From an uncultured Sphingomonadaceae bacterium (GTDB taxonomy: Bacteria; Pseudomonadota; Alphaproteobacteria; Sphingomonadales; Sphingomonadaceae), in contig CANLQE010000001.1 of the NCBI GenBank assembly GCA_947493215.1, forward strand, positions 496,001 through 560,000: DNA of 64,000 nt, read 5' to 3'. How positions within the stretch are numbered: the stretch's first letter is position 1; every line of letters begins with the position of its first letter. Positions 31,970-34,770 of this stretch are shown here, one piece after another. The notes under the pieces were generated by a model. The model was not told the origin of the DNA. It made no database searches and was given only the letters and a program-made list of their open reading frames with translations. The translations under genes and the position numbers were made by a program.

Positions 31970-31988
31970 TATCACATTTGATGTGATA
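31970..31988. promoter_or_regulatory. Palindrome 1 upstream of ribB: TATCACAT-TTG-ATGTGATA
   Basis: Perfect 8-bp arms; overlaps a TATAAT hexamer at 31987-31992. Confidence 0.7.
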
Positions 31989-32000
31989 TAATTCTGGACC

Positions 32001-32020
32001 TATCACACTGCAATGTGATA
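32001..32020. promoter_or_regulatory. Palindrome 2 upstream of ribB: TATCACA-CTGCAA-TGTGATA
   Basis: 7-bp perfect arms identical to palindrome 1's outer arms; centres 31.5 bp apart. Confidence 0.7.
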
Positions 32021-32055
32021 ACGAGGCTGCAGAAACATCAAATAAGGTCCTAGAT

Positions 32056-33363
32056 ATGAGCAAGATATTGATAGAGCAACTGATCGAATTGATCGATTCG
32101 GGTAAAGAAACACGCGCTGGTCTAGCCCGTGCGGCTGGCCTTCACGCCAATAGCTTGCGAGCCTTGGGGCAGGCTGACTGGAATCCGACCGCTGAAACGC
32201 TCGGCAAGCTCGAGACATATCTGGCCCGCGGCGGCAGCGGCGTGATGGCGACCGCAGAAGAGATTATCAACGAAGCGCGGAACGGACGCATGTATATATT
32301 GGTCGATGACGAGGACCGCGAAAATGAAGGCGACCTCATCATTCCCGCGCAGATGGCGACCCCCGATGCGATTAACTTCATGGCAAAATATGGCCGGGGG
32401 CTGATCTGTTTGGCTATGGCGAAGGATCGGGTCGAAGAGCTCGGCCTAGATATGATGAGCCAGAATAACCGCACCGCGCATGAGACGGCGTTCACCATTT
32501 CCATCGAAGCGCGCGAAGGCGTTACCACCGGTATTTCTGCTGCCGATCGTGCCCGCACCGTGGCGGTCGCCATTGATGGCACCAAGGGCAAGAGTGAGAT
32601 TGTCACTCCCGGCCATGTCTTCCCATTACAAGCACGCAATGGCGGCGTGCTGGTGCGTGCTGGTCATACAGAGGCGGCCGTGGATGTGTCGCGTCTTGCC
32701 GGCCTTAACCCATCCGGCGTGATTTGCGAGATCATGAAGGATGATGGCGAAATGGCGCGGCTCGATGATTTGATCGAATTTGCTCAGCACCACGGGATGA
32801 AAATCGGCACGATCCGTGACCTCATCGCCTATCGTCTGCGCAATGACCATCTCGCTCAGAAACGCACCGAAGCCACATTTGAAAGCCGCTGGGGTGGCGA
32901 GTGGAAAGCGATTACCTTTTTCAATACGGCTACTGAATCGGAACAAATTGTCTTGCAAAAAGGCCATGTCGATCCCGACAGCCCAACATTGGTTCGCATG
33001 CATGCCACCGCCATCTTCAGCGATGTCTTCGGCAAGACAGGCGGCCATTCCGGCACCTTGGCCGAATCGATGAAGATTATCGGGGAAGCGGGTTCCGGCA
33101 TCATCGTCTTCATCAGCCCGCGTATGCCCGATTTTTATTCCCGCCAAGTGGCGCGCCTGAAAGGCGAGAAGCCTGCCGATATGGATCAGCTACGCGACTA
33201 TGGTGTCGGCGCGCAGATTCTGACCGAACTGGGCGTTAGCGATATGGAGTTACTATCCAATACCAGCCATGATCTTGTTGGGCTGGATGCCTATGGATTG
33301 CGGATTGTCGGCCAGCGGGCGATTCCCGATGGTGAGAAAGTCCAAGAGCTGGAGACCGCATAA
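32056..33363 (+). CDS. ribB: 3,4-dihydroxy-2-butanone-4-phosphate synthase with N-terminal HTH and C-terminal degenerate GTP cyclohydrolase II-like domain
   Basis: [29 protein letters not shown] and [28 protein letters not shown]; about 60-aa XRE-like N-terminus; C-terminal half lacks the GCHII cysteine triad. Confidence 0.92.
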
Positions 33364-33788
33364 TGGCCAAATTTCTAATCGTCGAAGCGCGTTTTTACGA
33401 CCATCTCAACGATATGCTGATGGACGGCGCCAAGGCCGCATTGGATGCCGCCGGCCATGCGCATGCGACGCTGACGGTGCCCGGCGCATTGGAAATACCT
33501 GGCGCGATTTCTATGGCGATAGATAGCAGCCAATATGATGGCTTTGTCGCGTTAGGCGTTGTGCTGCGCGGGGAAACCTATCATTTCGAAATCGTCTCGA
33601 ACGAAAGCGCGCGCGGTATAATGGCTCTCACGTTGGATGGCGCAGCAATTGGCAACGGTATCATCACGGTTGAGAATGAAGCCCAAGCATTGGCCCGGGC
33701 GGATAAGGGACAGAAAGATAAGGGTGGCGAAGCGGCTAAAGCCGCAGTGGCCATGTATGAACTTGCCCAAAAATATAGCGAAGCTTGA
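33363..33788 (+). CDS. ribH: 6,7-dimethyl-8-ribityllumazine synthase
   Basis: [44 protein letters not shown]. Confidence 0.96.
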
Positions 33789-33794
33789 TAGAGC

Positions 33795-34232
33795 TTAGGC
33801 CATCGCTGTTTGAAATATATCTGCGAACCGATCCTTTTTTCCCATGACGTCGGACAATGTGAACTTGTCCAAATGACTCAAAAAGACTTCCACGGCGTCG
33901 ACCAGCATATGGGAGAGGCCACAAACCGGTGTAACTATGCAATTATTGGTTGAGCCGGGACTGCATTCAACGAACTGGCTGACCTCCTCCATCGCGCGGA
34001 CGACTGTTCCAATATTAATCTTCGCAGGATCACGGGCCAGTGTAAGCCCGCCGCCGCGGCCACGCTGGCTGACGATAAAGCCTGCGCTGGCGAGCCGCTG
34101 GGCAACCTTCATCAAGTGATTTTTGGAAATGCCGTAAGCCGAAGCGATATCATCAATCGTTTGGCTGCCTTCCTGTGACGCCAAAAACATCAATGTGCGC
34201 AGCGCATAGTCGGTCTGTGTGGTTAATCTCAT
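33795..34232 (-). CDS. Rrf2 family transcriptional regulator, NsrR-like
   Basis: MRLTTQTDYALRTLMFLA; three-cysteine cluster ECSPGSTNNCIVTPVCGL. Confidence 0.9.
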   Translation of the reverse strand: MRLTTQTDYALRTLMFLASQEGSQTIDDIASAYGISKNHLMKVAQRLASAGFIVSQRGRGGGLTLARDPAKINIGTVVRAMEEVSQFVECSPGSTNNCIVTPVCGLSHMLVDAVEVFLSHLDKFTLSDVMGKKDRFADIFQTAMA

Positions 34233-34314: not shown

Positions 34315-34770
34315 ATGGCCCACCCACATACGATTGCTGCCCGTGAAGACAAAGCGGCCCATGCAGCTGCTTTGGGGATTACCGAAGCGCGGATTTCCGA
34401 TCTGGTGGATAGCTTTTATGAAAAGATTCGCAGCGATGCTTTGCTGGGACCGATTTTCAACGAGACCATAGCCGACTGGCCGCCTCATCTCGCCCGCATG
34501 AAGGATTTCTGGACGTCCATCGCCATTGAATCGGGACGGTTTCGCGGCAACCCGATGGTCAAACATCTGGCGATCCCCGGAATTGATCGCGGTCATTTCA
34601 GTCACTGGCTAGCCTTGTTTGACGAGACATTGCCTGCAGTCATGCCGAACTCGGCGGCTTGTCAATTTCTGTCCGAACGCGCGGCGCGCATCGCCGACAG
34701 CTTAATGACCGGCATTTCCATCCACCGCGATGGTTTACCCAAAATAGCGCAAAAAGAAGGAGACAAATAA
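34315..34770 (+). CDS. Group III truncated haemoglobin
   Basis: ISDLVDSFYEKIRSDALLGPIFNETIADWPPHLARMKDFWTSIAI...HLAIPGIDRGHFSHWLALFDET. Confidence 0.9.
   Translation: MAHPHTIAAREDKAAHAAALGITEARISDLVDSFYEKIRSDALLGPIFNETIADWPPHLARMKDFWTSIAIESGRFRGNPMVKHLAIPGIDRGHFSHWLALFDETLPAVMPNSAACQFLSERAARIADSLMTGISIHRDGLPKIAQKEGDK

Follow-up and report, generated by a model that had tools for sequence, protein, structure and literature searches.

Metabolic enzymes that carry a DNA-binding domain and control genes of their own pathway are represented by BirA, PutA and NadR, the last of which is an XRE-type HTH fused to enzymes of the NAD pathway. A similar arrangement is found within flavin metabolism in RbkR, an archaeal flavin-pathway enzyme in which a CTP-dependent kinase is preceded by an HTH domain through which riboflavin genes are regulated. 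This HTH-riboflavin kinase has been listed as "bifunctional as gene regulator and enzyme" (PMC8305020). Feedback control of ribB-type genes is also known from the FMN riboswitch (RF00050) upstream of ribB/ribH, on which many other bacteria rely. Whole groups possess the riboflavin pathway without a riboswitch (PMC3766115), and the ribA promoter of Wolbachia is bound by separate transcription factors (PMC3518464). The control of riboflavin genes in bacteria that have no FMN riboswitch is thus a largely open question, to which the locus described here offers a testable answer. RibBX, as described by Brutinel et al. 2013 and cited in PMC10012899, consists of a DHBP synthase and a GCHII-like domain without the catalytic zinc site. 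According to PMC10012899, the activity of RibB is modulated by the X domain through a mechanism yet to be explained.

The locus lies in a 3.69-Mb Sphingomonadaceae genome, within a 64,000-nucleotide stretch of DNA that was analysed as a whole and is referred to as the window. A RibBX gene with an N-terminal HTH is preceded there by two palindromes, O1 and O2, which are very probably a tandem operator pair through which the ribBX-ribH operon is autoregulated, RibBX binding them via its XRE-type HTH and probably repressing the operon. The sequence comparisons below support the original prediction for this DNA, which had read the palindromes as a cooperative and possibly autoregulatory operator. 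Compared with BirA, PutA and NadR, HTH-RibBX concerns another pathway and another enzyme, its putative operator is a phased tandem at a probably leaderless promoter and its regulon appears to be a single operon as far as seen. Unlike RbkR it is bacterial, contains a DHBP synthase and an XRE HTH and would act on an unrelated operator. To the classical RibBX, which has no HTH, the Sphingomonadaceae add both the HTH and the putative operator, and whereas separate factors act at Wolbachia ribA, the HTH is here fused to the enzyme. The likeness to the FMN riboswitch would be one of feedback control, RF00050 itself being absent from the Sphingomonadaceae sampled. Enzymes that control their pathway through a DNA-binding domain of their own are already known; apparently new here is a DHBP synthase of this sort with a putative operator across a family without the FMN riboswitch. 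No earlier description of a DHBP synthase with an HTH and an operator was found in the open-access literature searched, and a prior report is possible.

The HTH-RibBX gene and its product

The operon consists of the HTH-RibBX gene and ribH, with the following features in window coordinates.

32056..33363, + strand: HTH-RibBX gene, 435 aa, coordinates including the stop codon
32056..32235, + strand: N-terminal HTH of XRE/Cro-CI type (residues 1-60), proposed to bind the operators (weak Pfam matches in many orthologues, AlphaFold model)
32257..32832, + strand: DHBP synthase (RibB) domain, residues 68-259 (PF00926, E=1.4e-83; TIGR00506 above cut-off)
32866..33315, + strand: RibX domain, GTP-cyclohydrolase-II-like, residues 271-420 (PF00925), zinc cysteines absent
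33363..33788, + strand: ribH, lumazine synthase (PF00885, E=2.4e-41), start codon overlapping the ribBX stop codon

The DHBP synthase domain is intact, as PF00926 and TIGR00506 both score above their cut-offs. Alignment of RibX with the RibBA of M. tuberculosis (4i14) placed other residues at each of the three Cys positions, and no Cys occurs anywhere after residue 224 of HTH-RibBX. A second PF00925 match of 202 bits (G000:C1:48367) marks a separate ribA-type gene in the genome. On account of the intact RibB, the GCHII-like domain devoid of zinc cysteines and this separate gene, the protein was assigned to the RibBX type.

No Pfam HTH profile matched the window protein, either at full length or with the N-terminal stretch alone, and the best matches of its orthologues (HTH_31, HTH_26 and HTH_3, E=0.001-0.007) stay short of the curated cut-off. 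The DNA-binding domain was assigned by its predicted fold. An AlphaFold model of the HTH, of medium confidence (pLDDT 77.5), has four helices at residues 2-15, 20-27, 31-35 and 46-58; the full-length HTH-RibBX model was left out as too poor (pLDDT 56). The top Foldseek matches of the HTH model are almost all XRE repressors (CapH, HipB, SinR, P22 c2 and C proteins), with probabilities mostly of 0.9-1.0 and weak E-values, the best being 0.1. The N-terminal domain is thus predicted to have a lambda-repressor-like XRE fold of 4-5 helices. When the sequence of the HTH by itself was searched against the PDB, all matches were spurious or insignificant. No second copy of the HTH was found in the window's genome, and a search across 290 genomes of the class gave strong matches in Sphingomonadaceae only. 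A stand-alone relative of 72 aa (L211:1453-1671, - strand) was observed in another alphaproteobacterial family, where it adjoins a divergent repressor-like gene in what is apparently a prophage control region. This hints that the fused domain may derive from a prophage-type stand-alone HTH.

Two palindromes upstream of HTH-RibBX

The palindromes lie in the 161-bp gap ahead of the gene.

31970..31988, no strand: putative distal operator O1, TATCACATTTGATGTGATA, a 19-bp variant, exact in sequence
32001..32020, no strand: putative proximal operator O2, TATCACACTGCAATGTGATA, matching the family consensus at 17/18 positions

Each is preceded by CC, both have the arms TATCACA/TGTGATA and their centres, at 31979 and 32010.5, are 31.5 bp apart; in all of these particulars the original prediction was confirmed on the window sequence. 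A pattern scan of the whole genome for TATCACA-N(3-8)-TGTGATA returned O1 and O2 only, and the reversed pattern used as a control did not occur. As the estimated chance expectation is ~0.1 per genome, two such palindromes inside 51 bp are not due to chance. No further site within 3 mismatches of the family consensus TATCACATTnnAATGTGATA was present in the window's genome, which rules out a larger regulon there at that threshold. O1 is kept in near relatives at position -85 to -87, and in other relatives its counterpart, ~31 bp upstream of the proximal operator, is a site or the right half of one.

Footprinting across the Sphingomonadaceae

Some upstream regions came from named genomes and others from 121 genomes, belonging to 91 genera, that were drawn systematically; sites were scored by matches to the 18-position consensus within 250 bp upstream. 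As originally predicted, the palindromes are conserved upstream of HTH-bearing orthologues: all 131 such genes had a site of at least 12/18, and 127 one of at least 13/18 (median 16), four reaching 12/18 only. Among HTH-less ribBX genes none out of 27 had a site of at least 13/18, a score found in 1.7% of shuffled sequence, and their median of 10 equals the shuffled level. In the systematic draw the site accompanied 86/90 HTH-bearing and 0/29 HTH-less genes (Fisher p ~1e-23, shared ancestry ignored). The HTH state switches ~10 times on a tree of the RibBX enzyme core, by a rough count, and the operator follows. The link between HTH and operator is therefore not one inherited event, and the two have been lost or gained together repeatedly. 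Their joint occurrence lends indirect support to the predicted sequence-specific binding of DNA by the HTH. The natural variants that have neither HTH nor operator provide a built-in comparison for testing.

Several genomes were observed to hold a second ribBX/ribBA copy without the HTH beside the HTH-bearing one (L201/L244 in G118, L246 in G019 and others). The operator is absent from the HTH-less copy read in G118 (L201).

An exact scan for the core pattern across the 121 whole genomes gave matches in 43 and none for the reversed control. These fell within ~80 bp upstream of HTH-ribBX in 35 genomes, just behind the gene in 1 and elsewhere in 7. The one behind the gene, in genome G030 (L138, ~1735-1751), is a perfect operator-like palindrome, ATCACATTCAATGTGAT, with no ribH after it in the stretch read. 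G016, a genome without the HTH, has a single perfect core site (L203) with no rib gene nearby, which was taken as chance.

The spacing of the two palindromes was also conserved. In 105 of the 131 HTH-bearing regions a further site scored 11/18 or more, and in 80 of these 105 it lay 29.5-33.5 bp from the first, compared with 0-5 for shuffled flanks, so that the three-turn spacing of ~31 bp, which the original prediction had noted in the window, is a property of the family. Several Parasphingorhabdus-like loci among L008-L017, L044 and L084 have a third site, TATCACATTGAAAGGC, which is degenerate and half-conserved and lies ahead of the start codon, 31-32 bp downstream of the proximal operator; this suggests a shift of the array by one unit in that clade.

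Predicted promoter layout

The promoter was examined by aligning the start codons of the 67 "near" regions that the systematic draw supplied. TTG starts at -36 to -34 from ATG in 46 of them, TA is found at -12/-11, and 70% have C at -1. In 54/67 TTG stands directly left of the site, compared with 10% in shuffled sequence. In most genomes the best site ends 10-11 bp before ATG. A motif resembling a Shine-Dalgarno sequence occurs in 17/82 near-class regions, which is chance level (shuffled 17%), as against 30/49 far-class regions, in which the best site is more distant. With TTG at -35, TA at -12/-11, C at -1 and no Shine-Dalgarno, the operator would fill the -35/-10 spacer of a leaderless promoter. 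We infer that the ribBX promoter is probably leaderless in most relatives, with the operator in a repressor position. Leaderless mRNAs occur in the order, 119 being described in Zymomonas mobilis (PMC7566282), and -10 elements of Novosphingobium mostly do not have the final T (PMC8407463). In the window's clade the array lies ~25 bp further upstream and a Shine-Dalgarno is present, and the elements were placed as follows.

31995..32000, + strand: putative -35, TGGACC, by homology to most relatives, in which TTG/TTGAC immediately precedes the proximal operator
32018..32023, + strand: putative -10, ATAACG, overlapping the right end of O2, with TA at 32019-32020, placed from the family pattern
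32044..32047, + strand: Shine-Dalgarno-like AAGG, from sequence, special to the window's clade with its ~25-nt longer leader

The TATAAT hexamer that the original prediction had seen overlapping the first palindrome is present at 31987-31992, but it was rejected as a -10 element. Close orthologues have TATAAC, TATAGC, TAAAGC or TTTTAT there, and no sigma-70 promoter that includes the hexamer emerged from a consensus scan. It is thus probably not the -10 of the ribBX promoter.

Proposed autoregulation and its alternatives

A conserved putative operator at the promoter of an enzyme that has a predicted DNA-binding domain in the same polypeptide is best read as the mark of a "trigger enzyme". DHBP synthase is a homodimer, which fits a palindrome whose half-sites are one helical turn apart: the dimeric core would present two HTHs to one palindrome. 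The two phased sites likewise fit cooperative binding of two dimers, and RibBX dimers would sit 31-32 bp apart on the same face of the DNA, probably cooperatively. Bound dimers would block RNA polymerase, and rising RibBX would in consequence lower ribBX-ribH transcription. Repression may in addition be tuned by a small molecule, either the substrate or product of DHBP synthase or, acting via RibX, a flavin or GTP. An essential enzyme would then probably be its own repressor in a family sampled over ~90 genera, with a defined 20-bp operator and a tandem spacing of 31-32 bp.

Operators are often palindromes of about this length, and those found here might serve a separate regulator such as CRP/FNR, GntR or another global factor, leaving some other role to the RibBX HTH. 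We consider this very improbable, since the sites vanish exactly where the HTH is absent, through ~10 state changes and also inside G118, which has both kinds of copy, and the only sites in the window's genome are those at the HTH-RibBX gene. For CRP in particular the arrangement is wrong: a CRP site is TGTGA-N6-TCACA, and TCACA-N6-TGTGA is the reverse of it. RibBX might instead bind the sites as an activator or dual regulator of ribBX-ribH. The distal site does precede the probable -35, where activators bind as well, and in some members it is better than the proximal one. The best site in most genomes is however inside the -35/-10 spacer, the classic position of a repressor, and a biosynthetic enzyme that activated itself would escape end-product control, which makes activation very improbable too. 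The repeats could finally act as RNA, since they are perfect inverted repeats able to fold and the leader of the window's clade is short and has a Shine-Dalgarno. That hairpins in the ribBX leader control translation or termination has nevertheless a negligible probability in our estimate: no Rfam family scored above cut-off, conservation of the arms extends to the bases themselves and not only to their pairing, and in most relatives the site, ending ~10 nt before ATG inside the apparent promoter, would not be transcribed. Repression by RibBX itself is the reading that we retain.

Absence of an FMN riboswitch

An Rfam scan of the 161-bp gap gave no family above cut-off, in agreement with the original prediction, which had seen no FMN-riboswitch signature there. 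RF00050 was absent from the gap, the window and the window's genome, and from all 121 Sphingomonadaceae genomes searched (the window's and 120 others), in a search whose control was positive in 7/14 reference genomes. Control of ribBX by an FMN riboswitch or other RNA element was accordingly rejected, there being none in the window and no FMN riboswitch in the genome or family. The further claim that the operator replaces a riboswitch was upheld as to the absence of the riboswitch. As to replacement it stays at the level of interpretation, because HTH-less members of the family also have no riboswitch. A stronger version, in which HTH-RibBX is a complete protein replacement of the FMN riboswitch in most of the family, with RibX sensing a flavin or intermediate and setting the binding of the HTH to a phased operator pair at a leaderless promoter, is offered tentatively and strikes us as rather unlikely; if true, the RibX domain would gain a role as a sensor.

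Flanking genes

Just downstream of ribH lies a gene for an Rrf2-family regulator, possibly NsrR-like (33795-34232, - strand), and divergent from it a small globin-like gene (34315-34770, + strand) with a weak Protoglobin match below the Pfam cut-off. The two genes may form a nitric-oxide response pair.
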